NCBI GenBank assembly: GCA_029204225.1
Contig: MU832042.1
Location: 26,233 to 90,232 of the forward strand
Direction of reading: 5' to 3'
Source of the DNA: Diphasiastrum complanatum
Taxonomy: Eukaryota > Streptophyta > Lycopodiopsida > Lycopodiales > Lycopodiaceae
Length of the DNA: 64,000 bases
Part shown: piece after piece, positions 27,090-53,181 of the stretch
How the letters are laid out: each line of letters starts with the position of its first letter
Numbering within the stretch: position 1 is the stretch's first letter
The notes under the pieces: model-generated
The model's input: only the letters and a program-made list of their open reading frames with translations
Told to the model about the DNA's origin: nothing
Databases searched by the model: none
Translations under genes and position numbers: made by a program

Positions 27090-28400
27090 TGTCAAATGCA
27101 AAAATGTGGGATGGAAATGGAATGCAATGTCGGATGCGAGTTATTGGATGTAGCATTGGAACACAACGTCAGATGCAACATTGGGTTTAAGGTCGTCAAA
27201 TGCAAGATCATTCATGTTGCAGCTTTGTTGTAGTGCAGGTGTGGTGTATTGCGGCGATAATATAGTGCGGGTGCAGTGGCAATGCGATGCTATTGCATTG
27301 GAATGTAGTGCAAGGTCAGACTGTGGTGCAAGGGCAGGCAAAAAACAGTGGATGCGGTGGGAATGTGATCTGTTGCAACAGCTGATGTGGTTGGGGTGCG
27401 GTTGAATACGGTGGCTATGGTGGAAGGCGGTCGCTACGGATCAAGAGTTGATGTGATTTGGATGTGGTGTGGTTGCGAGTGAGTGCGGTCTCTACGGATC
27501 AAGGGTGGAGGCAGTCGGTGTGCAATTTTTTTATTTTTTCACTACGGATCAATGCGAGGTTACGGGTCAAGGGTGGAGGTGGTTTGATTGCGGTCCCTAC
27601 GGTTTACGGTGGAGGTGGTTTGAATGTGGTGAATACGATAGCTGGGGTGCGGTTGTTGGCGATGGCTGCGGCTCAAGGCGATCACTACGGTTCAAGGGCG
27701 GGGGCAGTTGGGGTGCGGTTATTTGCGGTCGGTTTGCGGTGGAATGTGCTGTAGTGCGATTCAAGGGTGAATGTAGGTGGAAGGTAATAGTTTGTGGTGG
27801 AATGCGGTTTAATGCGGTTCAAAGGCGGATGCGGTGGGAGTGTAATCGTAATGGGGCGAGTGTGGACTGCGGCGGTGTGATGCGGTGGGAGTGCAGTCAT
27901 AAGGTGAGGCGAGTGCGGACTGTTGCGGGTATGCCGTGGCAAGGCAGTCGTAAGTTGGGGCGAGTGCGGACTGTTGCGAGTGTGATGGTTCAAAAGTGGA
28001 TGTGGGTGGATGGCGAGTTGTTTGCGGTTGAGGGGCGGTCTGTTGCGGTGCGGATGAATGGAGTTGTAATGTATTTGCGGTTGAATACGATAGTGGGAGG
28101 CGCGTTGCAGCTACGATGGTTGACGGTGGTGCAGTTGGCAGTTCGTGTGGGTGAATACGATAGTTGGGGTGCGGTTGTTTGCGGTCGGTTTGCAGTGGAA
28201 TGTGGTTTAATGCGGTTCAAAGGCGGATGCGAGTGGATGGCGAGCTGTTTGCGGTTGAGTGCATTTAGTTGTAGTTCAAGGGCAATTGGAGTTGGGGTAC
28301 CGGTGAATGCGGTTGTGATGCGGTGGGAGTGCAGGCTGTTGCGGTTGCAAGTGTAGTGGTAAGGCGATGGTATTGTAGTGTAATGCAGTGCCATGGCTGT
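27090..28400. repeat. degenerate G-rich (plus strand) repeat region
   Basis: About 1.3 kb are built from shuffled words such as GTGCGGTT, GAATGCGGT, TACGGATCAAG, GGTGGAGG and GATGCGGTGGGAGTG. The plus strand is strongly G-rich and C-poor. Long ORFs on both strands (for example 27469-28356 plus, 27990-28505 minus) are by-products of the missing stop codons; the His, Thr and Pro rich minus-strand peptides have no domain. Confidence 0.8.
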
Positions 28401-31889: not shown

Positions 31890-32181
31890 TGTCATGAACT
31901 TTTAGTACATCAATGCTTTTCAAGGCAATATAATATCCATTGTAAGCTTTGTAGGCCCAAAAGGAGCTATTAGCCTTAAGAACAAGGCGATTCCCTCTTT
32001 AGGCCCTCCAAAGTCATTAATAAGGATAATAGGCCAACAAGGGCCCAATATAGTTTAAAAACTACTTAACAAGGGATAACTATCCCTCAAGATAGTTAAG
32101 TAAAATGAGAGCGTTGTCTATAACTAGGCAAAAGACATCAATTTGTGAATCTTTTGGCTCATTTGCAAGTGAGAGCTTATA
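31890..32181 (+). repeat. LTR-like direct repeat, right copy
   Basis: Pairs with 24621-24917. It begins TGTCATGAACTTTTAGTAC right after a polypurine tract. The similarity ends near 32181, though this copy may continue towards 32270 (GAATATGAGCTATGGGG), where palindrome arrays begin. With the left copy it brackets about 7.3 kb. Confidence 0.8.
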
Positions 32182-32275
32182 GCTTCCTCCTTGTGAATAT
32201 GAGCTATGGGGATTTCCTTTGCTAGGTCTCACACAAGAACAGATATAGCAAATATCCACACACAATACAAAGGAG

Positions 32276-32760
32276 GACGCGTGGGCAAAAATAAAATTTG
32301 CGTGGATATAGTCGTGGATTGGCGTGGATATACGCGTGGATTATCCACGTGTGGATGTTCCACGCAAATGTCTTTTCCAGCAGCAGATTGGCCGGATGTC
32401 ATGAAATTCAAAATGCGTGGATTGTTCACGCGTGGATTATCCACGCCAAGTCCGACTACCGGCAACTGGACAAACCTCCGACACCCGGAGCCGAAAATAA
32501 GAATTCTAATTTTGTGTGGATAATCCACGCCATAATAAAAATAAAATAAAAAAGGCTCGGCTTTTGCGTGGATACTGCATGGATAATTATCCACGCGTGA
32601 TTTATCCACGTGAAATTCGCTTTATCCACGCAAAATCCAGAGTGTTGAGGCCGTGGATACCGCGTGGATAATTTTTTTTTAATATCCACGCGGTATCCAC
32701 GCGAAAAGGTTTCTGGAATTTGTGTGGATTATCCACGTGTGGATAATTCATGCAAATTTT
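32276..32760. repeat. array of GTGGATAATCCAC palindromes
   Basis: At least 20 copies of the core GTGGATAATCCACG, or its halves GCGTGGATA and TATCCACGC, occur in both orientations, often as the composite TGGATTATCCACGTGTGGATG with GTTCCACGCAAA. Spacers contain CCGGCAAC and CGGAG words. The array resembles the subterminal transposase-binding repeats of CACTA-type elements. Similar arrays lie at 34535-34612 and 43003-43365. Confidence 0.85.
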
Positions 32761-33218
32761 TTTGTCCAAAAAAAAATCATTTGGCACGAACCAAGATGTG
32801 GTTCGCTCCGAAACTAGAGGTGACTTTCTAGTTTTGTGTTTGTGTGTGAGAGAGAAAAGGAGAGTATAAATGGGAGTGAGAATGAGATGAGGATAAATGT
32901 GAGTGAGAAGATTGATAGTGTTTAGGATTTTTAGTTCATTGATGGATGTTAATAGTATGTGTTTTGTGATCATAAGTTTTAAGATCTTTTTTGTTTGTGA
33001 TGTAGGTTTGGATATGAAATTGAGCTTTCATTGAAAGGATTCAAAGATCAAGTGCATGCAAAAGGAAAAGCAAAGATTGCAAAACAATGGAGATACAATA
33101 GTAAAGGTAAATTCACATTTATTTTGATTCATTTGATATTTAGTTGATAACTTAATGTGTTATCTATTTCCATTACTTTCCATTACTTTTTATTGTGCAT
33201 TCTAGCATGCAAATCATG

Positions 33219-33400
33219 TGCTAAAATAGATACATTGCATTGAATTCATCAATGGATACATTTGCATTGTATAGATGTGCATTAAATAGACTATACATTG
33301 CATTGAATACATCAATAGATGTATTTGCAATCAATAGATGTGCATTCAATAGAGTATACATTTGCATTCATGGATTAAAAATATATGCATTCAAAAATTT
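33219..33400. repeat. imperfect tandem repeat with TGCATT units
   Basis: The words ATACATTTGCATTGAAT, ATCAATAGATG and TGTGCATT recur about three times with roughly 65-bp spacing. Confidence 0.65.
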
Positions 33401-33529
33401 TGCAAGAATGATGTGATGCCAAAACATTATATTGATTGATTTAAAAACAAGTACATTGATGAGAGAATAAATTCTCTCTTCCTACATTGCCTTCTACAAG
33501 GTCTTACATTTAATTTAAAAACCTCTACT

Positions 33530-34245
33530 CATTATCACTTCTTCCCTCCTCGCCTCCTTCATCTTGTTGGTGTCCACATCATCAAACTCCCCTTCACTTT
33601 CATTCACGTTCTCTTCCACATTTTCTTCCACATCACGAACACTTGAAGTTATAGAGCCTCTCTACAGAATAGAATCAAAGATTTTATTAAATTGAGATTA
33701 AACTTGTAAACCACAAAGTAAACAATCACAAAACAATAAAGGTTAAGAGTTTACGATTGGAAACAATCCATGGGATTTCATAAAAGTCTTAAGACCGGCA
33801 TATCCATGATCGTAACCTTGCTTGTACTCCGCGGCGGTCATGTGTCTTCCAAAATCACTAAGCTACATTCAACAAAAAAAACATAATTTAGCAATACAAT
33901 ATAGTTTAGCAATAAAAAAACATTAACAATATCACTACAAAAATAGAATCATATTAAAAAATATTGCACTTACAAATTGGGCCTCTAGATTGCCCCTTCC
34001 TCCCGATCCCAAGTGACTTTGGCCATGTTTTAAGAGCTTCTCGGCAGCGGCCCTACGTTGTTGTTCATACTTTTGGGAATTGTTTTGCAACTATTCTCTT
34101 TACACCTTCCTCCAATCCCTTTTGGAGCACCATCCAGGCTTTGTGGGATTCTTGGGATTCCTCACGGCTCTTCTCATCAATTGCCTTTTGTGTCGAATCC
34201 AAAGGCACATTGTATTCAAGGCCCAAGTCCTACTAAAAGCATTGA
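33530..34245 (-). pseudogene. broken transposon-type gene between palindrome arrays
   Basis: On the minus strand, exon-like pieces read EYNVPLDSTQKAIDEKSREE, SHKAWMVLQKGLEEGVKRIV, then after a one-base break near 34080 KYEQQRRAAAEKLLKHGQSH and GSGGRGNLEAQF. An intron-like AT-rich gap follows, then LSDFGRHMTAAEYKQGYDHG and LKTFMKSHGLFPI, and an acidic tail DVEENVEENVNESEGEFDD. The layout (charged helix, then Q-R-R--A-KL-H--GS-G----E) recalls the second protein of CACTA elements (Ptta/TnpA group), but the likeness is from memory and weak. Its position between two palindrome arrays fits a transposon origin. Confidence 0.4.
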
Positions 34246-34534
34246 AGAGAGAATTCTTAATACAAAGTCTCTATTATTTTATTCTTGTCTTCAAGCGATT
34301 GGAAGGACCAAAAGCAAGAACAAAGAAGATCAATAGAGCAAGCAAAAACAAGAGCACAATCACTAGCAATGAAGAGCAACCAAAAGCAAGCAAGCAAACA
34401 AGCAAGATTTATAGAGCTTAGAGAGCAATAGCAAGCAAGGGCACTAAACACTAGATTAGAAAACCTATAAAACTTGAAAGCAAAAGAAGAAGAGCAAGAA
34501 TGCTCACGGAAATGCCATTTTATTGGCATTCAAA

Positions 34535-34612
34535 TTTCGTGTGGATTATCCACGCAAAAGTTATCCACGCGTGGATAATCCACGTGATATCTATGCGTGG
34601 ATGTTCCACGCG
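34535..34612. repeat. short array of GTGGATAATCCAC palindromes
   Basis: Four or five units like those at 32276-32760, including the composite ending GTGGATGTTCCACGCG. Together the two arrays could be the subterminal regions of one 2.3-kb element. I could not find matching terminal repeats or a target duplication. Confidence 0.8.
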
Positions 34613-35687
34613 TTTTTTTCCTCTCTTGGCACGTGAGAGAGTCCCCCACATGGGCTTGCATGCTTCAAATGTCATTCAATATTCTCATAATCTTTTCTAG
34701 ATTTTATGAAAATATTTTATTGTAGGATTTTACATAAAATATATTTTTTAATATGATGGAATGTAAAAAAAATCAATTCAAAGATCATTATGGTAGTATT
34801 TAATTGTTAAAACTAGTTTTATATTGTTCTAAATTTTATTTTTCTTGAGATTTGACATACAAGACAAAATCATGAAATAAGAAATAGTACATATTATTAT
34901 TAAACAAGCAATTTGACAAGTTTTTTAAAATTTTATGACATAATATTATGTCAAATCGGTGATGTCATAAAACATTTAGTTTATTAATAATCTAGGTGTC
35001 ATAGATATGATATAATTTGATGACATAATTACATGGTCAAATAATTTTTTTTGGTTTTGTCATGTGGCCTCTTAAATGGTTGCATGGGATCATTTAGATT
35101 CATGATCAGAAGCATTTATGTTATATTCAGGACCTTATTGATATGTGACCTATATGATAAATCTTTTTAATTGTTGATGTGTGACTTATATAACCTTATA
35201 TGAAATCATAGTAATTAGTTGAAATATCATTTAGCATTGTAATTAAGATGTTGATCAATGGTGTGTTATCTAGTAAATGATTTCTTGCATACAAAGCAAC
35301 CATAGATAGAAAGAGCGAATGCATATTGCTCGTCATGAGATACCATGGCACACTAGGCCAATCCAAAGAGATTTACCTTGAGATCATCAATCATCTTAGA
35401 CAAGAGTTTAAACTGAGAGCTTCGAACATTAACTGCTATGTGGTCTTTAAATTAGTTGAGATAGGCCTGCACACACTATCTACTGATGTCTAACATTTGT
35501 CAGTATGAACATCATTTTGATTGCTCGTCATGTGTTGCCCCACCCAAGCAATTTTCTTGATAGCAATGTCATTAGAATATTAGATTTACATTAAGCATAA
35601 GTAGAATATACATGGATTAGATGTTGGCATGTCTTTAACAAATTTTATTATATTTGTTCAGAACATACGGTCTCATAATGATTACTT
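34613..35687. other. AT-rich non-coding stretch before the SET gene
   Basis: No gene. Near 34930-35045 the words TTATGACATAAT, ATTATGTCAAAT and GTGATGTCATAA occur in both orientations and could be subterminal binding repeats of the following transposon. No CACTA terminus is visible. Confidence 0.45.
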
Positions 35688-36463
35688 ATGATGTGGTATA
35701 GAGTAGCTGGCTACAATGTGTATATGTCATCGACGATGTCATCATCAGATAGCGATTCATCTCATGATCGCAACAACAGGTATATATTGTTATTGATATT
35801 GACATCAATTGCACTTTTTTTTTTATTTAAATATGAGTGTATGATTTTTCTTGCAAATTTATTCTTACAATGACATTTGATTGGAATTATGAATTCTAGG
35901 AAAATTATCGTACCTCCACGTGATTTAGAAAAAGAAAAAAGAATTGAGCTCTATCACAAAAAAAAAAGGAGCAATCAAGACTAAAGTACAATGAACAACT
36001 ATTGACTGGTTCATCTTCGAGCTCTTCCATCAGTCAACGTAGATCGCCTATTGATCCATCACATGTATGTATATTGATTTATGTCATAATTTTTTTATTT
36101 GTAATAGTGATGTAATCCGATTTGCTCTATGAATATAGTATATTGCTCTTTGGAAAGCCAAGACACCACACCATCACAAATGAAGGTTGAAAATACACTA
36201 AATGTACAAAGACTATTTTGTCAATTTTTGTCACATGTTACAATTCGTCACATGTTAGAATTTGTCAATTTTTACTTGAATGACACTGAAAGAATTTGTG
36301 CAATTTGCAATTGGATTATTGGGCCAGTTTCAACCAGAATATGATGAGAGGATACCATGTACATGCACACAATGCAAAGGCCTTAGGATTTGGACAAGGA
36401 GGATTGCCAACGATCATATTTGGGCCAATGGAATGCACACAGAGAATCCAAGAGTACAAGAGG
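35688..36463 (+). pseudogene. N-terminal exons of SET gene copy 1, with transposase-associated domain
   Basis: Three exon-like blocks can be joined at good splice signals. 35688-35779 is Ser/Asp-rich (MSSSDSDSSHDRNN, donor CAG|GTATAT). 35900-36064 holds KIIVPPRDLEKEKRIELYHK and a Ser-rich stretch; the frame is broken by one base in a run of ten A. About 36277-36463 holds EFVQFAIGLLGQFQPEYDER, then IPCTCTQCKGLRIWTR and NDHIWANGMHTENP. The last block follows the transposase-associated domain found before plant Tnp2 (F...A..... I.CPC..C.N... V..H....G....Y). The splice model is inferred from signals and frames. Confidence 0.6.
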
Positions 36464-36678
36464 TAAACTCTTTAAAGTGTTTTTTGGAAATGCTTTAATC
36501 TTTGACCCTCATGACACTTCAAGTATAGTTTGGCCAATAAATATTGGGCGATAGGATGAGTGTCACGATACTTTGAAGTAAATCTCTCACTTGATTCTAA
36601 AAGGAAAAATGCCTTGTGATTCAATCCATGTCTCCAAATCTCTAGAACGTTCTTACCACCCAACCACACCTATCCTAG

Positions 36679-37420
36679 ATGTTGCACATGAGTCCTCCAC
36701 GATACTCCACATGGATTCCACAAACTTGACCACCCTTTAAAAAAGAGAACACGTCTTGGACGTATTGTGACTAGTTTGAAAGATAATTGCAAATTACTAC
36801 GCACTGTTGATGTGTCAAAAGACATTCTAGGTTCTTTGTCTGACCTTCCTCTTCCACCTAACTTGCAACCATTAGTAAAAACTTTTATTAGAAGTAGATA
36901 TTCATGTTGGCCACTCCAATCACCATTACCATTAAATGGAACACCATTTACGTATTGGAGTCGAATGTACATGATCATGCCTAGTGAACACTTTCTTGAA
37001 GCTGGTTTGGGCCTTTTTGCATTGAGTAGTATTGAGGTCCCTCTAAATAGTGTTGTGACATTGATGCCATATGCAGGACCTCAAGACAATTGGGGTGATT
37101 GGCATGCTTTGTGTCGTCACCAATGGAGAATGCAAATATATGGCTTGAATTCAAATGCTTATTCTTTAGAAGAGCAACGCATGCAAGGAGGCAACATTTC
37201 AAGGGCAAATCGTACATACATTGATGGATGTCCAGATGTGCATGGAAACATTGCTGCATATATAAATAGTTCCATTGGCCACCCTCTATTGACGAATTGT
37301 GATTTTGAAGAACGCACCAATGGAAAAGAAGAATATTTTACTAGGAATGTAAAGGGCACTTATGTAATGGTTTGTGCCACTAGATCTATCAGGTTTGGAG
37401 AGGAATTGTTCATCAAATAG
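36679..37420 (+). CDS. SET-domain protein, copy 1, transposon-linked
   Basis: An exon starting at about 36679 (VAHESSTIL) is broken by a stop near 36737. From 36767 a 217-codon frame is intact. It has LPLPPNLQPLVKTFIRSRYS, FTYWSRM and the SET-N motif EAGLGLFAL. GNIAAYINSSIGHPLLTNCD follows, which stands in for the R-F-I-N-H-S-C-x-P-N core, and the end is RFGEELFIK, the SET GEEL motif. SET domains transfer methyl groups from S-adenosylmethionine to lysine. Here the NHS-C core reads N-S-S and the usual final D/E-Y-G is lost, so activity is doubtful. The ORF ends about 440 bp before Tnp2 coding sequence on the same strand. A homologue of the same design is at 45853-53181. Confidence 0.75.
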
Positions 37421-37858
37421 TTTCAACCGTCCTCTACCCAAATGTTTGCAAAAGACAATAAGTCAAATGTGAAGATTTAAATTTTGTTGATATGTAGAAA
37501 TGTATAATCCATGCATCTTGATTGTATTTGGTTTGTGTCATTAAATATGTCAAATGTTAGGAGTATTATTCGTCATTTGCCTAGATTAAATGTTAGGAGC
37601 ATTATTCGTCTTTGAGTTCATTGAATGTTAACAAGTTGAAAAGACAAATCTGTCTAATAGATACATTGGTATGTTAATACTTTTTAAAATAAGAGGTAAT
37701 TTATATTCATATGCAACATTTAGATCTATCAAGTATTGGGAGGAAATGTTTATCAAGCATTGTTTCAACCTACTTCTTGTTATTTTGATATATAGGATTC
37801 TTCATCCTCATTTAGTGTTAGAGACAATAATCCTCGTAATGGTTGACGTAGACGACGA

Positions 37859-40800
37859 ATGCAATACAACAGACTACATATAAAGCAATTACCTTGTCGT
37901 CTATGTCAAGGCTTAAAAGAGATGATGGAAATTGATGAGCGCATTAATCAAGAGACTAATGCATCTGAATCTAGCTCATCTAGATCTACTTCTTCGCAAA
38001 CAAGTTCCAACGATGAAAATGAGCTTCCAATGAATGATGATTTGAAGTCATGGGAGACATGTTGGATGATATGTACGAGAACAATATTGCAGCTAGACAC
38101 AATGAACAAGATGAGGAGGCACTTTTGTCTAAAGAAGAAAGAAAATTGCGAGAAGAATCAAAGACCGCATTGTATCCTGGAGCAAAGACATCTCGTTTGG
38201 CGACTTCTCTACTTCTATTAAATCTTCAAGCCAAATATAGATGGAGTAACCAAAGCCTCACATCATTATTTGAGTAAATTTTTTTTCATCTACTTGTCAT
38301 TTTTGCTTTGAAACAAAATTTACAATTTGGACATTGAGTAATATTTTTTTTACAATGACTTCTTTTGTCATGTACAGACTATTGAAAAACAAAATTCTCC
38401 CAAAAGAGAATGTCATGCCTGAGACAAGAGATGAGGCACGAAAGATGTTGACTAACATCGGGATGGACTACAATATCATGCATGTCCAAAAGATTGTATT
38501 TTATATCGAAAAAAGTACGAATCACTCAAGAAATGTCCCATTTGTGATACTCCTCGATATAGAGATGATTTGTAAGGGGCAACCACTCCGTGCAAAGTTT
38601 TACGACATTTTCCAGTAATTCCACAATTGCAACGTTTATTTCGTTGTAAATCTCTTACACAACTTATGGACTGGCATGCACACCATACCTCTACGGATGG
38701 GATGATGAGGGTACCTTCAGATTCACCTGCATGGAAACACATCAACAAAGAGTATCCAAGCTTTGCCAATGAGTCAAGAAATGTGAGATTTGGTCTTGCA
38801 ACAGATGGTGTGAACCTCTTTGGTGTACGAGCAACTACATGCTCCATTTGGCATGTTTTCTTGGTAAATTATAATATTTCTCCTTGGTTGAGTACAAAAA
38901 AGGGACATATTATGTTGGCACTTTTAATTCTTGGCCAATGCAAGATTAAGAACATAGATGTGTATCTTGAGTCGCTTATTGACGAGTTAGAAGATTTGTG
39001 GAAGGGGATAAAAGCATATGACATTTTGTGCCCCTTACATGAGAGGGAGTTTACAATACATGTCCTTGTAATGTGGACAATGCATGACTATCCAAAATTA
39101 GGTGAATGCTCAAGTAATCATTCAAACAATGTCTATCTTGTGTACTAGGAGTTTGTTTACAGTTACATACAACTAGTAATTCTTGACATTTACATGATAT
39201 ACTACAATGGCTATAATTATTCATTGACATATACTTTTTTTAATAGTGATTGATAGTATCCATTTGTTGGACAGGCTTTCAAATGGCTGAAAAAAATGCT
39301 TATTTTATACGAGGGCCAAATCGTGTGGGAAGATACTCTTTTAGTCTCAAAAAAGTGGTTTATGAAAATCATCGTAATTCAAAAACACTCATAGAAGAGG
39401 TTTTGGAGGAAGAGTTGAGAGAGAGATGTCTCCAAAGAGGATGTTCGTGAAAGATTGGCGAATACTATGAGAAGAATCTCAAGCAAAGCCAATCGATGGT
39501 ATGAAAAGATTATCTATATTTCATCGTTTGGAATATTGGAATAACTTTTTGATTAATCACCTACTTGATCTCATGCACATATTTAAAAATGTGGGTGAAT
39601 CTATTTGGAAACACTTGATTGGTGAAAAAGATACCATTGCTGCAAGGCACGATCTAAAAGAATCAAATACCAAAAAAGAATATTGAATAAAGGATGGTGA
39701 AGATCATGCTCCAAAAGTACCTTGGACATTCACTAAAGAGGAGCTTAACCATGTGCGCTCCATTATTCATGACATTAGAACACCAACTGGTTTTGTCCAT
39801 TCTCTATGGTCATCATTCACAGTGGATGGAAAGTTGCAAGGTCTCAAATCTCATGATTGGCTGAAGATGATTCAATTCATCTATCCATTTTCAATTCATG
39901 GGTGCTTGTCAAAAGATATTTGTGAGACCATATACAAACTATCAATCATTGTCAGGTATTTACATGTATTTGGTGCATTTTTCTATTTAGTATTTATTGA
40001 TTGAAAATTCAAATAGACATAAAATGGATTGAATATGTTGCAGATGGATGTGTTCAAAAGAAATCCATGAGCTGGATCTTTGCAAGAGACATGAGGATAT
40101 GGTGGAGATTGTGTGCATGTTTGAGAGATATTTTTTGACTTCCATCATCGACTCACAAGTGCATTTATTGGTGCACTTGGTTGAAGAAGTTTCTATTGCT
40201 GGTCCAGTGCACACTAGGTATAAGTGCATAAATTATCTTTTGCATGTGTATTTAAACTAAATCAATTGATACATGAACTCATTATATAAAACACTTATTT
40301 CTAACCATTTGTGACTTTTTAGGTGGATGTTCTTTATGGAAAGGTACATGAAAGTCTTCAAGATTTTGTGTGTCAAAAGGCAAGGCCTGAAGGTAGCATG
40401 TCAGAGGGATGGTTAGTACATGAATCTCTCTTTTATGTTACTGAAATTTTGCACCAACTACATCCATCTGCTCCACTATTGTGGCGTGATGAAGAAGCTG
40501 AAGAGGTAACTAGTGAAAAACCTTAGGGGATGGGAAAGGTCCATAGCTGGCACCCTTCCAACGAGAAAAAATTTCTACATTCATGCTTTATAATTGTGGA
40601 GTTATGGATAAATGGTTAAACCTATATGAAGAAGAAAAAAAAGAGGACTTTGTCTAGAAAGCGCCAACGACAGAATAGAGGTAGACACATGGTCTCAAGT
40701 TCACATGATCTTGAGCCATTGCCCAAGCAATGCACTATAGAGTGGATGCATGACACACTACAAAAAGCAACAAAAGAGGGACAAAAAATATCAAACGCAG

Positions 40801-41744
40801 AATGTGACTTTGCAAGAGGATGCGAATGAAAGGTATTATTCTTTAGATACTTTATTATTAGAACATTCTTGTTTATAACAATATTTGCTTAATCATTTTG
40901 AAATACCATGTTCATTCACAATAATTATTTATGAGATTCATGTTTGTCATGTGGCAGTGCAAAATGTATAATGCTATAAGGGCTTTTGGTTTTCACTTTC
41001 GTGTTGAAAGGATTGATAACAAGAGACGCACACACGATTGTGGTGTAATAGCATCTTTCCAACAAGAAAGTCAAAACAGTGCACGAGATCGGAATCCCAT
41101 CTCAGAAGATATAGAATACGTAGGAACTATACAAAATATTTATGATGTGTCATTTGGTGAAAGTGGACACTATTTTTTATTTGATGTGAAATGGTTCAAG
41201 GTAGTTTGTAGAGGGCCAAATGCAACCGTAAAATCGGATCCAAGTGGATTTTTTGTGATTGATTCATCAAAAACATTGGTCATGGAGTCCTTTGACACAT
41301 TGGTGTTGCCTCGTCACTGTGAGCAAGTGCACATGCTATGCTATAATGTTTTTCATTTTATTGCAAGTGACTTCAGTATTTGAGTTTTCGATATGTTCTA
41401 AAATAGTGATTTTTGCAGGGATTTTTTCAACCAGATCGACTAAACAAGATATGATGGTTTGTAGTTCAAGTTGAACCACGTTCACGACGAGTATTTGAGG
41501 GTGCAAATGTTGAGAATGAAATGGAAAACCTTCATTTTAACTATGAGATTGAGCTACCTAGAGATGTAATAATTGTCAAACCATACTTGAAGCACCTACT
41601 TCCATAGATGTTGAGAATAGAAATTCTAATAGTCAAGATGATGAAATAATTTTTGAAAGTGAGAGCGATGATGAAAATCAACTAAGAGGAGATAAATTGC
41701 AACATGATGTCGCTGATGAAATTGATTCTTGTAACTTTGAATAA
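37859..41744 (+). pseudogene. CACTA (En/Spm) Tnp2 transposase, full-length but decayed
   Basis: Exons in order: acidic N-terminus (EIDERINQETNASESSSSRS), LREESKTALYPGAKTSRLAT, RWSNQSLTSLFE; an intron (about 38275-38378); ILPKENVMPETRDEARKM, CPKDCILYRKKYESLKKCPI; LRHFPVIPQLQRLFRCKS, MDWHAHH, WKHINKEYPSFANESRNVRF, GLATDGVNLFG, SPWLSTKKGHIMLALLI, DVYLESLIDELEDLWKGI. Then LDLMHIFKNVGESIWKHLIG, LQGLKSHDWLKMIQFIYPFS; a DUF4218-like part (MFERYFLTSIIDSQVHLLVH, EGSMSEGWLVHES); and a DUF4216-like part (NPISEDIEYVGTIQNIYDVS, HYFLFDVKWFKVVCRG). The last exon ends in an acidic tail at 41744. This is the whole Tnp2 architecture (cut-and-paste transposase). Frameshifts near 38049, 38483, 39450 and 40385 and a stop near 38574 make it non-functional. 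Confidence 0.9.
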
Positions 41745-41959
41745 AAATTGATTATTGCAATTCTGAATGAAATTGATTCTTGCAATACTTTCACATGATT
41801 GCTATTTAGCCAAAATAGAGTCTCATTTATGGTCAAGTAAGTGAAAAGAATAGACATAGTTTGACTTCAATCCCATTTTTTTGGAGATAATGTCGGTGAA
41901 GATAGATGTGCGGCTTCATGTTCTAAGAAAATTCTCATTTTTTAACAAATGTTGCAAAG

Positions 41960-42391
41960 GCAATAAATCACTAAAAGCATGTGAGTTAATGAAATCACCA
42001 CCACAAACTATGACAAAATCAAGTGTTTCATCATAGTCAATCTGCTTGAATTGAACATATCCCTTGGCAACTAGTCTTGTTTTATAATTGCTCACACTAC
42101 CATCTCGATTAGATTTGATCTTAAAGACCCATTTGCAAACAGTAACATTTTGTATCTTTGATGGAGGATCAATAATTTTACAAGTATCTCAAACAATGCA
42201 TCATGTACTCACCTCACTTTTCATTACATCAAATCACTCTTTTGTTGCTACAGTTTCATTCACACTTGAAGGAACATCATCAAACTTAAGGTAGTAATAA
42301 GGGCAATAAAAATTAAACAATCATCAACTTGTAATTGCTTCTATCTTCTTTGTATTTGAGCATTGATGGTTGCATTTGGGCTCTGATACCA
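41960..42391 (-). pseudogene. pol: copia RT fragment next to a primer-binding site
   Basis: On the minus strand 42290 to about 42010 reads WFDVMKSEVSTWCIV, DPPSKIQNVTVCKWVFKIKS, NRDGSVSNYKTRLVAKGYVQ and DYDETLDF, the N-terminal part of copia RVT_2. Right of it, GGCTCTGATACCA (42379-42391) is the complement of an initiator-Met primer-binding site, so gag, protease and integrase were deleted between the LTR side and RT. Confidence 0.85.
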
Positions 42392-42790
42392 TGTTAAAAT
42401 CAAAGGTTATGAACCTCATTTGGATACTAAAACCTTGAAAAAACATCAAAGGTTTCACTTATATCTAATAGATAGAAAACTAGCACACAATTCAACCTAT
42501 TTTGCATCTAATTGGCAAAGGCTTTTGAATATCACAATAAAACTAGAAATAATTGATCTTCACATCTTGTCACACACGTGGAAAGTATAATACTTTGTTC
42601 AGATTCAGATCTATTCATTAGACACAAAAAATATCACATTCATCATTCATCAATTTCTCATTAAAGAGCAAACTTGCCAAAATCACCATCTCTTGATAAT
42701 CTCTCGAAGTAAGTACAAAATGAGCTCTCAATCCATATCAAATGATCTCGGATATGAGATTAGGTAGAGTGCCATTAGGGTAGATCCTAA
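42392..42790 (-). repeat. probable copia 5' LTR, minus strand
   Basis: Begins TGTTAAAATC directly at the primer-binding site above. The far end is not clear because there is no second copy in the window; the repeat at 42797 may mark it. Confidence 0.5.
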
Positions 42791-42796
42791 ACACCA

Positions 42797-42990
42797 TGAT
42801 ATAATTCATTTTAGAAAAATATTTATCTAACTAATTCCATTTCATTATGAACATGCAAAAAAAAAAAAATCATCATAATATAATTCACTTTAAAAAAAAT
42901 ATATATAGCCTAATTATAATATAATTCACTTTGGAAATATATTTATTTAACTAATTTCATGTCATTATCAACATGCAAAAAAAAACAAAA
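42797..42990. repeat. imperfect tandem repeat, AT-rich
   Basis: Two to three copies of TATAATTCACTTT-GAAATAT, ATTTAACTAATTTCAT and CATTAT-AACATGCAAAAA. Confidence 0.75.
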
Positions 42991-43002
42991 AAAATGCGTG
43001 GA

Positions 43003-43365
43003 TAATCCATGCAAAAGATATCCACGCGTGGATATCTTTAACTTTCGGTCTCGTTTGGTGAACAACTTGAAATTTGCGTGGATAATCCACGCGTGGATTA
43101 TCCACGCCAATACTACTTTCCGGCGCTGCCAACCTTCCCTCCCAAACAGTTGCCGGAATTTTTAAAATTCAATTTTGCGTGGATAATCCACGCGCATAAA
43201 TTTTTCGACGCCGTGTCAGAAAAACACCAGTAGACTGGTCGGAGGCGTGTTAAAAATTTTTTTGGCGTGGATAATCCACATGTGGATGTTCCATGCAAAC
43301 AAAATTTCGAAAAATCGACTAAGGGTCGGGTCTTGCATGGATACTTTGCGTGGATAAACACAGAG
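43003..43365. repeat. third array of GTGGATAATCCAC palindromes
   Basis: About a dozen units in both orientations, with the same composite (GGATAATCCACATGTGGATG then TTCCATGCAAAC) and the same CCGGAATTT and CGGAGGCG spacers as the array at 32276. It could be the far end of the CACTA-type element that holds Tnp2, or a separate fragment. No gene lies between it and the copia pieces. Confidence 0.8.
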
Positions 43366-43593
43366 TTTTTTAGTTGTGTCATGTGCCTTATCTACATGAA
43401 TTCATGCTCATTTCCATTGCCATGTACTCTTTCTTTCATTTCTATTGAGATTCTATCGAGATCCTTGTGTTTCTAGCTTTCTATGGATATGCTATTTTGA
43501 ATGTTTTGTACTTTTTTTGCTCTTAGCTTTACTTCCATTGTAATTGCTATTAGCTTAGATTTGGCACATGACAATTACAAGATTTTACGTTCT

Positions 43594-43858
43594 CCTATGG
43601 ATCTAGGTCTAAAACTGTCTAAAGAGCAATGCCCTCAATCTAAAGAGGAGAAGGAAGAAATGAAGGGATATCCATATTAGTCCATTATGAGAGTCATCAG
43701 ATACGTACAAGCTACTATTGACCTCTGCATCTGCTATGGAGAGACTAATTCATCCGACATCCATATATTACATGGATATACGTATGCGAATTGGGCAGGT
43801 GACATTGACACAAGAAATCCACTTCTGAATTTATCTACTTGCTCAACGATGGTTTGAT
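43594..43858 (+). pseudogene. copia RNase H fragment
   Basis: The plus-strand frame reads LGLKLSKEQCPQSKEEKEEM, a broken copy of PYASAVGSLMYA, then DLCICYGETNSS and LHGYTYANWAGDIDTRN. This follows the copia region between RT and RNase H (LSK.QCP......M...PYA and GY.DADWAGD.D.RKST). Part of the middle is deleted and a stop lies near 43680. Confidence 0.8.
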
Positions 43859-45184: not shown

Positions 45185-45345
45185 TTCGTGGTATCACAGG
45201 ACCTGTTCGACCTTCTGGGTTGAACTTTAGTCCTCTGATGTGGGTTGATTCGTTGAGGTTCTAACTCATTGTCTGAGTCAGCATAAAATGGTCTTTCCAT
45301 TTAGTAGAAGCTTGCACTTGATTCATTTTCTCCCAAATTTCTCTT
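45185..45345 (-). pseudogene. copia integrase-RT linker fragment
   Basis: The minus strand matches 11379-11425 at the words CATCAGAGG, AAGTTCAACCCAGAAGGTC and AACAGGTCC, and reads PRRSNRS. A TGGTATCACAGG word at 45189-45200 resembles a plus-strand copia primer-binding site, but this may be chance. Confidence 0.55.
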
Positions 45346-45852
45346 TTTTTGATCCAATCTAATATTTGAAAACTATGTATTCTTCTAGGAGTGGGTCTTC
45401 TATCCTCATGGCCATCGAAAAAAGCTTTCATGCATCTAAATCTATGGTTAGGTGGAAGAAAACATCAATAATTGTAAAGTCATCATACATGGTATTATTA
45501 ACAAATATGATAGGCTCAATAAAATTTTCAACACTGTTTCATAGCAATGCATGCATGTTAACATATGACTAAACTTGATTCACTTAATAAGCTATTGGAA
45601 ATTGGAAACATAACAACAATCAATGAAAAATAACATTAGGACTAAGCACTCATACAAAACAAAAACTCGTACATCAATTATGTGCAAAAAATGAAAAAAA
45701 AGGCTTAATCGTAACACACATTTAAACCATATGAAAATCCTCTCATAAACTCAAAACATCAACAAATACATCATAATTGTAGCACCATGAATACGTTGGC
45801 TAAAAACTAGTGAGAGAAATTTATGAATAAATGCAAGCTGTAAATTACAACA

Positions 45853-46067
45853 TTACAATGACCACTCATAATGTGAAAACAATTCTTCACCAGCTTGAAT
45901 GTCTCTAGTGGCTATAGTCATGGTGTGCCCATAAGCTCCTCTAATAGATAGCTTAAGTGGGATTTCTGGATTCACCAATGGACCTTCACAAAAATGCCAC
46001 TCAACATTCCTCAATTCTGGTTGATCCCATGAACTAGTAATATATCCAGCCACATTTCTATAATCCA
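45853..46067 (-). pseudogene. SET gene copy 2, C-terminal part
   Basis: The minus-strand frame DYRNVAGYITSSWDQPEL, VEWHFCEGPL, GAYGHTMTIATRDIQAGEEL, FSHYEWSL then stop continues in frame with the part at 52167 once the copia element between them is removed. It holds the second half of the SET domain: N-V-A-x-Y-I-x-S-S matches the copy 1 core, and QAGEELFSHYEW is the SET-C GEEL...Y.W motif, better kept than in copy 1. The gene is cut by the insertion and carries stops upstream, so it is dead. Confidence 0.75.
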
Positions 46068-46838
46068 TGACAAATTTTCCAGATTTCACACGTGTGGGGA
46101 ATGCCCACAAGTATGATGAATCTAATTAAGCCTTGTGATTAGCACAGTAACCTGATTCTAGATTGATTAACAAGATCTAGTTCAAAAGATATGGCTTAAT
46201 CACAATCTAGCATGCTAAGCATCAGAATATGATAGCAATAAATCAATAATGAGCAAAAGTACAAGATATCAGTGTATTGGCATTAGCCTCAACACGAGTT
46301 AGAGAGAGAAATATAGAGAGATAACAAGCAAAAATTGTGTGGATCCAAAATTGCATGAGATAGCTACAAAGCTTTGGTTCTTCTACACAAATTTATGGAG
46401 TTTGAGGCAGCTCGAGGTAGAACCACATCCATCCATCATTTAATGAGATCTAAAGTGAAAACTAGAGTCTATGTGACATTTGTCACTTCTCATGCATGAA
46501 ACTCTACCAACTATTTCCAAGTGTGCTAGTTCTAACTAGAAATGTACAAATCATCATGCATGTGTCCATTACACTTTGTGCATGCCTTGCATGTCACTAT
46601 GGATCACTTACAATTAATGCATGTGAATTGCCACGAGTTTCTACAAGCATAATTTTGCTAATTCTATGTCTACAAACTATATGCAAGTTGTACTCATCAT
46701 TCTAGATGTGACATATCCATGTAGCTCGAGTTCTATCTAGGCCAAACTTGGCATTTTGCATTTATGAACAACATACTTGCATGGTACAATATTTGTAGCA
46801 AGCCTAAAGTCAAGATGGATTATTTTTCCATTTCAACA
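46068..46838 (-). repeat. 3' LTR of the copia element
   Basis: On the plus strand it runs from TGACAAATTTTCC to TTTCAACA, 771 bp. It contains AG-rich runs and a GAGTTAGAGAGAG word and is related to the solo LTR at 10664-11378. Confidence 0.93.
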
Positions 46839-46855
46839 GTCCTCCTAAAAACAAT

Positions 46856-48331
46856 CTATATGGACTTGAACATTGATCTTGGTATTACTCCAAGATTGGC
46901 TCTATGCTTGATGAAGGAACTTTTGCTCAAAGGTTTGGTGAGCATATCAGCAATACAAGATGATGTGTCGATGTGCTCCAAGTAAATTTCCCCTCCAATG
47001 AGCTTCTCTCTCATGAAGTGATGTGCAACTTCTATATGCTTGCTCCTTGCATGGAATATCGGGTTGTTGGCAAGGGCTTGGGCCGAAATGTTGTCAAACA
47101 TGATCATAGGTAGATCCTCTTCCATGATTATCTTTAGCTCCACTAGCAGCCTCTTGATCCAAAGCACTTCCTTTGTTGTTGTAGTGAGCGCCTTGTACTC
47201 AGTTTCACATGATGAGAGTGATACAGTATCTTGCTTTTTGGAAAGCCAAGATATCAACTTTCCTCCAAGATATATGACATAAGCACTTGTAGATTTTCGA
47301 TCTGCTCTATCACTTGCAAAATCCGAGTCAGAATAACCAACAATAGAAAGATCTTCACTTTTATACAATAAACCATAATCAAAAGTTGAAGATATATATA
47401 TAAGTACTCTCTTGGCCATTTTCCAATGATAACTAGTAGGATTTTGCATAGCCTGGCTCAACTTATGAACACTAAAGCTTATGTCAGGTCTAGTTATTGT
47501 GAGCCAAATTAAGGAGCCTATAAGACGCCTAAAAAGTGTGATGTCCACGAAGGATCTTTCATCACCTTTGTTAGGGTCTTTTACATTTTTCTCCATAGGA
47601 GTTTCTATACTCTTACCATCTAACATATTGAGCTTTTTTAACATTGAAATAGCATACTTGGATTGACATACAAAAGCTTTATCTTTAAGAAAGTCAATCT
47701 CTAATCCTAGAATGTAGTGAATTTTTCCAAGATCTTGCATCTTGAGTTCTTTTCCAAGTGCAATCTTGGTTTCCTCAACTAACTTGATACAACTTCCTAT
47801 TAGAATGATATCATCAACATAAATAAGAAGGATGACAATATCTTTATCAGAAAATTTGACATATAAGGAAGGATCATAGTTACTAAGATTAAATCCTAGT
47901 GACTCAAGAAAGGTGTTAAGTCGAGAATACCATGACCTTGGAGCTTGCTTTACTCCATATAAACTTTTGAAGAGCAAGCAAACTTTGTCTTTGTCATTGA
48001 TGAACCCAATAGGCTCATCCATATAAATCTCTTCTTCTAGATATCCATTTAGAAATGCATTAGAGACATCTAGTTGAAGAACTTGCCAATTGAAAAAACA
48101 AGCAACAGAAATTATGATTGTACTGATACCATCTTTGCAACTGGAGCAAAAGTCTCCTATAATCAAGTCCATAAACTTGAGCAAAACCTTTAGCACAAAG
48201 TCTAGCCTTGTACTTGTTGATTGTGCCATCTTGATTATACTTGACTCGAAAAACCCACTTGCAACCAATGGCGTGCTTGTTGGATGGAAGATCCACAAGC
48301 TCCCATGTCTTATTGGCCATAAAAGCATCAT
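46856..48331 (-). pseudogene. pol: copia reverse transcriptase and RNase H
   Basis: The frame holds LQLDVSNAFLNGYLEEEIYM, KSLYGVKQAPRSWY, the active-site YVDDIILIGS, LGKIHYILGLEI, RRLIGSLIWLTITRPDISFS, the RNase H segment GYSDSDFASDRADRKSTSAY and CETEYKALTT, and ends KHIEVAHHFMREKL, ADMLTKPL. These enzymes copy the element RNA into DNA and degrade the template. The YVDD and the RNase H Asp and Glu residues are present. The first 80 or so codons are out of frame with the known RT start, which continues in the neighbouring ORF (KARLCAKGFAQVYGLDY), so a frameshift near 48110-48190 separates integrase-RT into two frames. Confidence 0.93.
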
Positions 48332-49460
48332 ATTCCTCCTTCATGGCAAGGTACCATTCCTTCAAGTTGAGTGCATCATATACATCCTTTGGCTCCTCAT
48401 GAGAAATAAAATAAGCACAATTAGTGGAGTTGATTTCCACTTGCTTGCCTCTATCTTCATAGGTAAGCCTCCTAGGCTCGGATCTTTCTCTTTGAGATCT
48501 CCTTGGTGAAAAGATTTGAGGTGACTCCTCCTCAATTCTCGGCCCCATCTCTCCATGATAGTCTTCAAGGGTGATGATTGGAGTATCTTTGTGAGAATTT
48601 TTGAACTCGCCCTCCTCAAGAATGTATTTTTGATCCTCATGGAATATAACATCCCTACTCTCAATTGTAGTTGAGGTAGAGGGAACATAGATTCTGTAAG
48701 CTTTCTTGTTGGATGCATATCCAACCATGATCCCTTTAATCGAGTTAGGATCATCTCTTTTCCCTGTTTCCAAGGGCACATGAACAAAGCAAGCACAACC
48801 AAAAATTCTAAGGTGATCTACCTTAGGTTTCTTCTTAAACAAGACTTCAAAAGGTGATTTTCCAACAAGTGCATTGTGAGGTAATCTATTGCACAAATAG
48901 TTTGCACAATTTATAGCTTCACCCCAATATTCAATAGGCAAAGAACCTTCAACTCGAATTGCTTTAGCATATTCACATAAAGATCTGTTTTTCCTCTCAG
49001 CAACTCCATTTTGAGATGGAGAATAAGCACATGAAAGCTCTCTCTTTATTCCTTCACCTTCATAGTATTCATGAAACTTGTTGGAGACGTATTCACCTCC
49101 TCCATCACATCTTAAAACTTTAACTTTGAATGAAAACTGTTTCTCAACATAAGCTTTGAAGATTAGGAAGTGATTAAAAACCATAGCCTTTAAAGAAAGT
49201 AGATACAACCAAGTATATCTAGTAAAGTCATCAATAAAGGTGACAAAACATGTTGCACCACCAATACTTTTAGAAGAGGAAAAATGTACATCTGAGTGTA
49301 TAAGCTCTAAAGGATGAGTAGTCTTTATAAAAGACTTCTGATATGGCTTTATGTGTGATTTTGCAATGGTAAAGTTAGGATGCCCTAATCTTCTATGCCA
49401 CAACTCCTCCTTAGATAACAAAGCAACTTCACAAAGATTTTCATTCTCATAAGAATTCAA
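48060..49460 (-). pseudogene. pol: copia integrase and start of RT
   Basis: The frame has WHRRLGHPN, the His end of the HHCC zinc motif, but then jumps to AKSHIKPYQKSFIKT. The Cys pair expected between them is deleted. The integrase core follows: HSDVHFSSSKSIGG, FIDDFTRYTW, VLRCDGGGEYVSNKF, AYSPSQNGVAERKNRS with the D-D-E residues present. After it come PRRSQRERSEPRRL and EEYDAFMANKTWELVDLPSN, CKWVFRVKYNQDG, the RT entry. Loss of the Cys pair suggests a crippled integrase. Confidence 0.9.
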
Positions 49461-49503
49461 CTTGAAAATTCCACCACATCTAGATCCATCAGCTAGGATC
49501 TCA

Positions 49504-50121
49504 TCATTTTTTTTTGATAAAGCAAGTATTGGAGTTGAACTTTACATCACAACCATTATCAAGCAACTTTTCCACACTAATCAAGTTCTTTGTAAGTTTT
49601 GGAATGAAAAGAACATTAGAAAGTGCAAGAACTTTTGAAGAAGCAAGTTTCAATGGAATGTTGCCAATTCCTTCTATAGAGCACTCATGATCATTAGCAG
49701 TGTAAATAGATCTCTTAAGTCCTTTGTAAGGTGCAATTGAGTCAAATGACTCCTTTGAATAGCACATATGTGAAGAAGCTCCACTATCTATGTACCAAGC
49801 TCCATCTTTCTTGAAAGGTGATGAAGAAAAACTGGACACCATAAGTGATCCTTCTCCATCACTTGCAACAGAATCTTCTTCAATTTCTTTGGAGAGATTA
49901 GCTTGCTTGAGTTGGTTTTTCTTCTTAAAGCAATTAGAGGCATAGTGCCCCTTCTTGCCACAGAAGAAACACTTCTCTTTCTTCTTCTTGGTCTTTGAAA
50001 TAGAAGGATGAGATAAATCATCCTCTCCACCATGCTCGAGTTTGTTCATCCTGGAAAGTCTATAGCTTTGCCTAGATTCTTCAGAAATAAGAATTCCTTG
50101 GAGAGTTTCTAGATTAGGCAA
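49504..50121 (-). pseudogene. copia gag C-terminus and protease
   Basis: The frame contains the nucleocapsid zinc knuckle CFFCGKKGHYASNC (C-X2-C-X4-H-X4-C) and the aspartic protease site WYIDSGASSHMC with its flap-side pattern IGNIPLKL, LSNVLFIPKLTKNLISVEKL. It is separated from the gag N-terminus by a break near 50122-50200 and from integrase by a stop in a T-run near 49510, so the polyprotein is not continuous. Confidence 0.92.
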
Positions 50122-50202
50122 CTCCTCCTTAATGGAAAAAGACTGAACAAGATTATCATAGTCATTTCTTAGGCCATTTAAAATGACTTGAACTAGCTCA
50201 TC

Positions 50203-50637
50203 TTAATTAATGGTAACACCAACACAGGAAAGCTCTCTATGTAAATCTTTAACTCTCAGAACATATTTTGATGCACTCTCTTCACTTCTTTGGAAACTTT
50301 GAAAAATCTGATTTTTAAGAGTGAGTATTCTAGAAGTATTCTTTGCTTCATAGATGGACTTAAGTGCATCCCAAGCTTCTTTTGTTGTAGTGCAAGATCC
50401 TATCTCTCTCAGAATTTCATTAGATACATTCATCTTAATGAAATGTATAGCCATTCTAGCTCTCTTCCTATACTTAGGAATTTCAGCCTGTGCTTGAGGC
50501 TCCTCCTCAACACCAAGCACAATGTCCATAACATCCTGGAGTATCAAAATAGACTCCATTCTGAACTTCCAAATTGAGTAATTAGAAGTGTTTAGTCTTT
50601 CATTAGCTTCTAGAAGATATCCTCCCAGAGGTGACAT
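50203..50637 (-). pseudogene. gag: copia gag N-terminus (UBN2)
   Basis: Starts MSPLGGYLLEANERLNTSNY and has SIWKFRMESILILQDVMDIV, EAWDALKSIYEAKNTSRILT and LKNQIFQSFQRSEESASKYV, the copia capsid signature. It ends at VTIN with a stop just before the region that leads into the zinc-knuckle frame. The start lies about 750 bp from the primer-binding site, a rather long leader. Confidence 0.92.
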
Positions 50638-51399
50638 TTTGATGAAGACTTCTTAATTATTGGACTGCAATATGTTTGAGCTTGTTCCAATCAGACTTAA
50701 AGTTACTGCTCTCTTTCACTATAGGTATTTTCAAGGATGTACTACCTTCCTATGTGAAACACTTGCAACTATATTTGAGATGGATCTCAAATATTCCACA
50801 AGACAAGTTATCTAGATCAGACACACAAAGTGGATTGAGACACTTTGGCTAGTTTGAATCCTAATTTTGGCACGTGTGAAATGTATCAAAAGAAAAGACT
50901 ATTGACACTTTGAAGGCTCAAAGGGTGTTCAATTACTTCAAACTTAGTCTTGATCTTCAGTTTCTTGTGTAGGATGCTCAAAACAATGGATTCAGAACAA
51001 AGGAATCAAATCAAAATGCTGTCACTCGGATTTTGGACCTATCCATATCCTCTTTAAAAGCTTATAACTCTTGATAGACACATCAGATTGATTTGATTTC
51101 AATTTCTATGGAAAGTACAGATCATAAGCTTTCCATCACGCTATAACATCACTATCTTTGGATATACAAGCAAGGAATTAGAAGGGACTGAAAATCTTTG
51201 ATTTTCACATGTGCAGAATTCCAGAATTTCGTAATGCCACTATTTAGGTCTGAAAATTCAGTTCCAATCTGATTTGATCCAAATACACTCCAGAGAAAGA
51301 TGAGGAAAAGTGCAAAACTGCTTTTTGCTTGAATTAGCTCTCATTCTCTTGTACAATCAGAGATGTTAGCATGCAAAGCTCAATTTGGCTCTGATACCA

Positions 51400-52166
51400 T
51401 GACAAAATTTCCAGATTTCACACATGTGGGGAATGCCCACAAGTATGATGGATCTAATTAAGCTTTGTGATTAGCACAGTAACCTGATTCTAGATTGATT
51501 AACAAGATCTAGTTCAAAAGATATGGCTTAATCACAATCTAGCATGCTAAGCATCAGAATATGATAGCAATAAATCAATAATGAGCAAAAGTACAAGATA
51601 TCAGTGTATTAGCATTAGCCTCAACACGAGTTAGAGAGAGATAGATAGAGAGATAACAAGCAAAAATTATGTGGATCCAAAATGGTATGAGATAGCTACA
51701 AAGCTTTGGTTCTTCTACACAAATTTATGGAGTTTGAGGTAGCTCGAGGTAGAACCACATCCATCCATCATTTAATGAGATCTAAAGTGAAAACTAGAGT
51801 CTATGTGACATTTGTCACTTCTCATGCATGAAACTCTACCAACTTTTTCCAAGTGTGCTAGTTCTAACTAGAAATGTACAAATCATCATGGATGTGTCCA
51901 TTACACTTTGTGCATGCCTTGCATGTCACTATGGATCACTTACAATTAATGCATGTTGCCACGAGTTTCTACAAGAATAATTTTGCTAATTCTATGTCTA
52001 CAAACTATATGCAAGTTGTACTCATCATTCTAGATGTGACATATCCATGTAGCTCGAGTTCTATCTAGGCCAAACTTGGCATTTTGCATTTATGAACAAC
52101 ATACTTGCATGGTACAATATTTGTAGCAAGCTTAAAGTCAAGATGGATTATTTTTCCATTTCAACA
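51400..52166 (-). repeat. 5' LTR of the copia element
   Basis: 767 bp, paired with 46068-46838, adjoining the primer-binding site at 51387-51399. Confidence 0.95.
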
Positions 52167-53181
52167 GTCCACATCTCACACAATCCTGTGCATGTTTTGA
52201 GTGCTTTTGAGACGAGTGTCGTCAATTAAAGCATATAATTGCAATCTAGGATAATACACTAACAATTTTTTCCAAGTATGATACTTGTATCTAATTCCTC
52301 CGTAAGGCATCAGCTCCTCTCCTTTTTTAAGATCTTCTTTCAAGAATAAACCAAATCCAGCCATTGCCAAGCCAAATATTTTCACTTCATAATTTTTTCC
52401 CTAATATTCGAATGTAGTAAATTTAGGAATATTAGAAGGATGTTTTCATAATCCATGCTTCGCTGAATTAAAGTTGGTGACAAGATTTCTAGAAATTTCC
52501 AGAGGTGGTGGTATGGTCGTTAGAAATCTCATGGATTCATGAGCAACATCTTCCCACATCATCAATATAGAATCTACCATGTTTTCGACTTCATTCCATG
52601 ATTTCTGTCAAAAAACTAAGATTTTTGTCAATAGATTCATGACAATTTTTTGCATATATGTCATGTCAATTATTATTGGATGTGCAAGCTTTTACTAACA
52701 CTACATCTCAACATCTATGTTTCAAAAGATAATTAGATAGCTAAATCTAGAATATTTCATTCACGATTTTTCAAAAACAATTGGTATACCTGTACGGATT
52801 TTAGTGCTTCTTCAGTACAACACATATCTACCCAAGAGTATCTGACTAAGTGCTCCTCAACTTCTTTAAATGTTTTCAATTTTCCACGACCCCTACACTT
52901 TTTGCAGGGACATGGTGCAACATCCATTTTTCGCTCTTTTGCTTCATCCATGAGTTTGTTAAGGAGGTCCTGCACTTTATCTTCATCTTTATCTGAATTC
53001 AAAGGTATGTGCATGCACTTTGTTAAAATTTTTGAAACTATTCTTGTACTAGATGAATCAAAGCATTAAAACACATAGCTTTGTGCATGAAGTGTGTATA
53101 CATACTTGACAGGCGATGGGTTGTTTTGATGCCGATGGTTGACTAGCATCACGAGCATTCATCATGGTTTTGCTAGATTCC
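52167..53181 (-). pseudogene. SET gene copy 2, N-terminal part with transposase-associated domain
   Basis: Minus-strand exons fit good splice sites. 53181-53106 reads MESSKTMMNARDASQPSASK (donor GTATGT). 53017-52790 reads HIPLNSDKDEDKVQDLLNKL, DVAPCPCKKCRGRGKLKTFK, EVEEHLVRYSWVD (donor CAG|GTATAC), a transposase-associated type Cys domain. 52604-52167 reads SWNEVENMVDSILMMWEDVA, IPPPLEISRNLVTNF, FEY then a stop, NYEVKIFGLAMAGFGLFLKE, DLKKGEELMPYGG, the SET-N half. In-frame stops are TGA near 52456, TAG near 52408 and TGA near 52183, each explained by a C-to-T or G-to-A change. The 52408 stop falls where copy 1 has Trp in TYW. The frame continues in 45853-46067 beyond the copia insertion. Confidence 0.72.

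Follow-up and report, generated by a model that had tools for sequence, protein, structure and literature searches.

Organization of the locus

The DNA analyzed here (the window) is a 64,000-nucleotide stretch of the Diphasiastrum complanatum genome (Lycopodiaceae; contig MU832042.1, positions 26,233 to 90,232). It contains a transposase-associated (TA) domain, a SET-domain open reading frame (ORF) and a Tnp2 transposase gene, which follow one another on the plus strand (locus 1) within a proposed CACTA/EnSpm-type transposon. The original prediction, made from the letters alone, had placed a SET-like domain ahead of Tnp2 on the same strand, behind a Cys-rich transposase-associated domain with the motif CTCTQC. 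The order TA, SET, Tnp2 was borne out, the SET domain scored above the PF00856 cut-off in a profile search, and a locally built profile recovered the TA domain. Coordinates and scores are collected in Table 1.

By sequence, the SET ORF encodes a SET domain of divergent type. It runs for 242 codons without a stop, longer than any other stop-to-stop ORF in the proposed 11.1-kb element; a length of at least 242 codons was reached in none of 200 dinucleotide shuffles, the longest shuffled ORF having 187. A SET profile built without the rows from the window matches it at E 4.4e-79, and it is 87% identical to P0001, an uncharacterised protein of D. complanatum. The frame is lost at the C-terminal catalytic Tyr, where P0001 reads on in another frame. 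The tail of the protein follows in that frame, and a decayed tandem partial copy of the C-terminus lies between the SET ORF and Tnp2.

The TA profile was made from 31 of the 34 TA-bearing Tnp2 relatives, three being dropped in which CxCxxC was not found. It gave two clear matches among the 1,535 six-frame ORFs of at least 25 codons in the window, the next standing at E 0.73. Further exons had been proposed at 35688-36279; neither Pfam, applied to one ORF there, nor the TA, SET and Tnp2 profiles, applied to all ORFs, supported them.

The Tnp2 gene includes PF02992 (Transposase_21; 160 bits at 38576-39148) and DUF4218 (PF13960; 47.6 bits at 40033-40260), and residues 23-710 of the 715 of P0009 match it in pieces from 38465 to 40859. 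Stops fall within the aligned stretches at 38573, 39468, 39684, 40524, 40617 and 40827, and the frame also shifts. The description of this gene as full-length thus holds for its extent and fails for its reading frame. The gap between SET and Tnp2, put at about 440 bp by the same prediction, is instead about 380 bp if a possible first exon seen by eye at 37797 is accepted, or about 620 bp if measured to the exon at 38041, the first with profile support. With neither the SET nor the Tnp2 frame intact, the locus 1 copy is dead. A minus-strand TnpA/Ptta-like gene was suggested by eye at 33746-34229 but is unsupported, Pfam and a comparison with P0049 having given nothing; the stretch is a broken, coding-like one (GLEYNVPLDSTQKAIDEKSREESQESHKAWMVLQ..) within the element, with no Pfam match.

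Repeat arrays and candidate ends

The motif GCGTGGAT or its complement ATCCACGC occurs 28 times in the 64 kb, and all 28 occurrences fall within three clusters, the outer two of which enclose both SET and Tnp2 of locus 1. When 450-bp stretches are ranked blindly by their most repeated 8-mer, the two outer arrays come first in the window, and the longer palindrome GTGGATWATCCAC, with at most one mismatch, is found 11 times in the window against 0.07 expected. The motif itself contains CpG; observed/expected CpG is 1.42 and 1.43 in the arrays (32232-32770 and 42990-43378), compared with 0.39 in SET, 0.38 in Tnp2 and 0.51 in the window. The outer arrays look like CACTA subterminal repeats, so that locus 1 appears to combine a Tnp2 (Transposase_21) gene with subterminal direct and inverted repeat arrays on both sides, as a CACTA element does.

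Both CAC..GTG ends and 3-bp duplications have been recorded for EnSpm (PMC12730594; this and the other papers cited are represented here by excerpts). In the regions scanned outside the arrays, 32000-32340 paired with 43270-43700, CACAA (32232) and TTGTG (43378) form the sole CAC..GTG pair whose 3-bp flanks match, and a scan of 34200-34545 for a left end close to the inner cluster gave no such pair. A long terminal repeat (LTR)-like repeat at 31892-32181 comes to within about 50 bp of the proposed left end; because its copy at 24623-24917 (92.5% identical) stops at the same point, no empty site is demonstrated.

A second locus with the same order

On the minus strand, locus 2 (53065-45264) repeats the order TA, SET, Tnp2 fragment on one strand, split by a copia insertion. 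A SET profile of eight database relatives gives three matches in the window, at 36692-37417, 46125-45856 and 52400-52179, with the next at E 0.8; the last two belong to the two halves of the interrupted SET gene of locus 2. Its joined translation contains three stops, and the SET rows of the two loci are 29% identical. By rough arithmetic, a second adjacency of this kind would arise by chance with a frequency of about 0.6%. The first half of Tnp2 would not fit into the space available, so locus 2 either lost that half or never had it there.

Four weak 42-nt repeats, 62-81% alike, lie about 3 kb 5' of locus 2 (56063-56332). The copia element contains long pol-like ORFs by eye, and an LTR-like stretch at 10695-11378 is about 81% identical. 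Beyond the two loci and a third Tnp2 relic (Table 1), a weak Tnp2 profile match is present at 63223-63504 on the minus strand (12 bits, E 0.0037).

Table 1. Positions of, and evidence for, the features of loci 1 and 2, the proposed element and the third Tnp2 relic
Feature	Position	Strand	Evidence
Proposed CACTA/EnSpm-type element, 11,147 bp, candidate ends CACAA...TTGTG	32232-43378	+	CAC..GTG pair with matching 3-bp flanks; provisional
Candidate target duplication TCA, left copy	32229-32231		flanks CACAA end
Candidate target duplication TCA, right copy	43379-43381		flanks TTGTG end
Left subterminal-like array	32300-32702		13 of 28 GCGTGGAT/ATCCACGC motifs
Inner motif cluster, about 1.7 kb 5' of TA exon	34548-34602		4 of 28 motifs
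Right subterminal-like array	42996-43355		11 of 28 motifs
TA domain, CTCTQC motif, locus 1	36280-36462	+	PF13963 21.9 bits at 36280-36495, below cut-off 27.7; local TA profile E 4.7e-8
SET-domain ORF, locus 1	36692-37417	+	PF00856 24.1 bits (cut-off 22.4); frame breaks at catalytic Tyr codon
C-terminal tail of SET protein, other frame	37419-37469	+	17/17 residues match P0001 216-232 exactly
Decayed tandem partial copy of SET C-terminus, between SET ORF and Tnp2	37608-37802	+	repeat 83% over 36 nt; P0001 163-229, E 0.006
Tnp2 transposase gene, of full extent, frame disrupted by stops and shifts	38041-41329	+	PF02992, PF13960, tblastn with 93 relatives
TA domain, CPCKKC motif, locus 2	52790-53065	-	PF13963 25.2 bits (below 27.7); local TA profile E 2.1e-8 (ORF 53065-52760)
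SET gene N-terminal half, locus 2, with stops	52167-52604	-	SET profile E 1.5e-8 for 52400-52179
Copia-type LTR element within SET gene of locus 2	46068-52166	-	LTRs 97.5% identical; flanks TGGAC/TGGAT, 5 bp, one mismatch
SET gene C-terminal half, locus 2, retains GEELFSHY, ends GEELFSHYEWSL	45853-46067	-	PF00856 20.1 bits (below cut-off); profile E 2.6e-15 (46125-45856)
Tnp2 fragment (FLPPNHRFRCMKAFFDG.., FLPPNHRFRCMKAFFDGHEDRRPTPRRIHSFQIL), about 390 bp 3' of SET gene of locus 2	45264-45464	-	13 of 93 Tnp2 queries at E ≤ 0.01, best 2.4e-5; Tnp2 profile E 3e-7
Third Tnp2 relic	12066-12806	-	Tnp2 profile

Relatives of the SET and Tnp2 proteins

Protein searches drew on about 5.8 billion proteins, from which candidates of 0.55-1.75 times the query length that shared short words with the query were taken. 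The first search found three SET relatives among 217 scored candidates, and the profile search found eight at E ≤ 0.01 among 2,758: P0001, whose frame is uninterrupted, and seven others. P0001 reaches 33 bits with PF00856, and P0003-P0006 stay under its cut-off. No common host SET gene is among the eight. Within the length limit of the search, this family is small, which makes it less likely that an ordinary plant SET gene was captured recently. A search of solved structures, with no length limit, gave no significant match: the plant SET enzymes ATXR5/ATXR6 gave the best single-sequence match (ATXR5, E 1.6 with the window ORF and 0.17 with P0001), and the profile ranked EZH2 first (0.17). In two non-plant collections, one of viral contigs (75 pattern matches) and one of genome contigs (88), no relative was confirmed. 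Among the ten aligned SET rows, GxG is retained in nine, as is the final catalytic Tyr, which is present in all eight relatives and in locus 2 and is lost from locus 1 at the frame break.

For Tnp2, 93 relatives are listed at E ≤ 1e-30 from 7,999 scored candidates (0.55-1.75 times 666 aa). None of those listed carries the name Diphasiastrum, many of the rows having no species name.

Other features of the window

A 609-codon ORF at 18636-20465 on the minus strand is PPR-like by eye, and a G-rich stretch with internal repeats at 27457-28356 contains a long low-complexity ORF. A direct repeat pair (59561-60748 and 62287-63465) is 81.6% identical.

A SET gene probably carried by a CACTA lineage

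Why does a SET gene lie between a TA exon and a Tnp2 gene? Because it is placed between the two outer arrays, and because the same order recurs at a second, diverged locus, the SET ORF most likely belongs to the CACTA lineage, which suggests that this lineage carried its own chromatin-modifying enzyme. On balance, we favor reading locus 1 as a decayed autonomous CACTA/EnSpm transposon whose lineage carries a divergent SET gene between the TA exon and the catalytic Tnp2 exons, intact copies of which probably made a SET lysine methyltransferase acting at copies of the element. The methyltransferase made from intact copies would reach these through a spliced TA domain, or through a TA-bearing transposase bound near the GCGTGGATTATCCACGC arrays. 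Once there, it might alter chromatin, or act on the transposase, and so counter silencing or tune transposition. Such self-targeted chromatin modification is inferred, with the VANC protein of the Arabidopsis VANDAL elements as a working analogy.

Several results weigh against this reading. Compared over 13 and 30 end bases, the candidate ends agree at 8 and 11, and since 11 of 300 random segment pairs do equally well, the pair is provisional and no more than suggestive. The window shows no other complete copy of the element, and the element's flanks join into none there. At locus 2, Tnp2 is reduced to a 67-residue piece, and no array was found in the flanks by a repeat scan that recovers both outer arrays of locus 1. 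The third Tnp2 relic has no TA match, and the SET match nearest to it, about 3.8 kb upstream (16596-16522), is at chance level (E 0.32); the SET profile gave none there. In the length-limited searches, SET is carried by none of the 93 listed Tnp2 relatives (by the PF00856 column and the local SET profile), and TA by none of the eight SET relatives; host SET proteins beyond about 423 aa lie outside the length range of the search. Finally, at the NHS motif, read by eye, Asn is present in nine of the ten rows (Thr in locus 2), and His is replaced in all ten, by Ser in nine and by Cys in P0001. Cofactor binding by MLL5 is abolished when Asn at this position is changed to Arg (PMC5094779), and Asn is retained in the present SET family; the altered motif leaves room for a catalytically dead enzyme that serves as a binding module.

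Which gene owns the TA domain? Between the SET protein and the first exon of the transposase, the choice is near even. At locus 2, a good donor (52790) and an acceptor (before 52604) in matching phase would join TA straight to the SET frame, which favors a TA-SET protein. At locus 1, among the phase-matched acceptors of the stretch examined, only the one at 36746 keeps the frame open, and it is weak. The other arrangement, to which we give slightly less than an even chance, is that TA is the transposase's own first exon and SET a separate gene nested before the catalytic exons, with no TA-SET protein. The lack of TA among the SET relatives, and of SET among the listed Tnp2 relatives, points to this arrangement. 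Each locus has one clear TA, Tnp2 normally begins with TA (PF13963 is present in 34 of the 93 relatives listed), and P0001 begins MMTSLKDN, with no TA and with a Met at the matching place in locus 2, by eye. Against it stand the phase-matched splice sites of locus 2 and a CRLCQG remnant before Tnp2 at locus 1, which could be Tnp2's own TA (TA profile, 3.5 bits only). The nested gene is a variant within the reading that we favor: with no fusion, targeting would depend on protein contact. The prediction that this lineage carries or has fused a SET protein is supported by the arrays and the second locus as regards carriage, whereas the TA-less SET relatives speak against a TA-SET fusion. SET and Tnp2 as one fused protein was rejected, since none of the 93 listed Tnp2 relatives (0.55-1.75 times 666 aa) shows SET.

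A further possibility, an unlikely one, involves alternative splicing of the transposase gene. From one TA exon it might yield both a TA-Tnp2 transposase and a TA-SET methyltransferase that shares its targeting domain; histones (or the transposase) would then be methylated at the subterminal arrays by the element itself, which would thereby control its own chromatin state.

Could the SET gene instead be a passenger? CACTA elements do capture host sequence (PMC8616336, PMC13317346), the locus 1 SET is broken at its catalytic Tyr, and the protein search was blind to long host SET proteins; a host SET gene fragment might have been picked up, in the manner of Pack-CACTA elements, with no role for the element. 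We regard this as improbable. Two diverged relics share the order TA, SET, Tnp2, the SET relatives are few, solved SET structures gave no significant match, and the Diphasiastrum relative is uninterrupted. Moreover, Pack-CACTA elements are non-autonomous and without a transposase of their own, whereas locus 1 has a Tnp2 of full extent, although decayed. That a host SET gene merely stands beside an unrelated transposon is very improbable: nested repeats abound in the window and the terminal evidence is modest, but the arrays bracket both genes and the second locus repeats their order and strand, and on these grounds a host gene present by chance was rejected.

Comparison with known systems

Is a SET gene inside a DNA transposon without precedent? 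SET genes within HarbingerS and MuDR transposons of Phytophthora are described in PMC12730594, reported there as Kojima and Jurka 2014. These share with locus 1 the plan of a DNA transposon with a SET gene, a histone methyltransferase gene in their case; they differ in belonging to other transposase superfamilies and in having oomycete hosts, the locus 1 transposase being Tnp2, not Harbinger. They are nearer than SETMAR, which the original prediction had offered as the nearest precedent. In primate SETMAR, too, SET stands beside transposase parts that recognize element ends (PMC8616336), but SETMAR, fused to a mariner transposase, has been domesticated as a host gene and is not carried within a mobile element, and locus 1 has Tnp2.

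Among plant CACTA elements, Jozin of Chenopodium has the same TA, Transposase_21 and DUF4218 domains, and subterminal direct and inverted repeats are described for the superfamily (PMC8978399). The additional domains reported there for plant CACTA elements are DUF4216, Peptidase_C48 and Transposase_24, not SET, and the term methyltransferase is absent from the main text (PMC8978399). The earlier statement that no plant CACTA case was known agrees with our literature search, which found none with a SET gene and which mostly did not extend to subscription papers and Repbase Reports. A SET gene inside a DNA transposon is thus of a known kind, represented in Phytophthora; what would be new here is a plant CACTA element with SET.

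To our knowledge, VANC has no SET domain. The analogy lies in its action: VANC, which the element itself encodes, targets motifs repeated in its own VANDAL copies and lifts silencing (PMC5735166, PMC13317346). VANDALs differ in belonging to the MULE group, and VANC causes loss of DNA methylation (PMC5735166). Fungal EnSpm and other DNA transposons with a TET/JBP dioxygenase likewise have acquired a chromatin-related enzyme that is presumed to work against silencing; theirs is a DNA demethylation enzyme, not a protein methyltransferase, and the hosts are fungi (PMC12730594). The evasion or use of host silencing by transposons is known in some detail from Arabidopsis VANDALs and from fungal DNA demethylation enzymes. 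If our reading is correct, a CACTA lineage of an early-branching vascular plant would extend this range, for plants, to an enzyme of histone type. It would also be a test case, with a catalytic domain, a candidate targeting domain and arrays together in one 11-kb element, for which an uninterrupted relative from D. complanatum has already been deposited.

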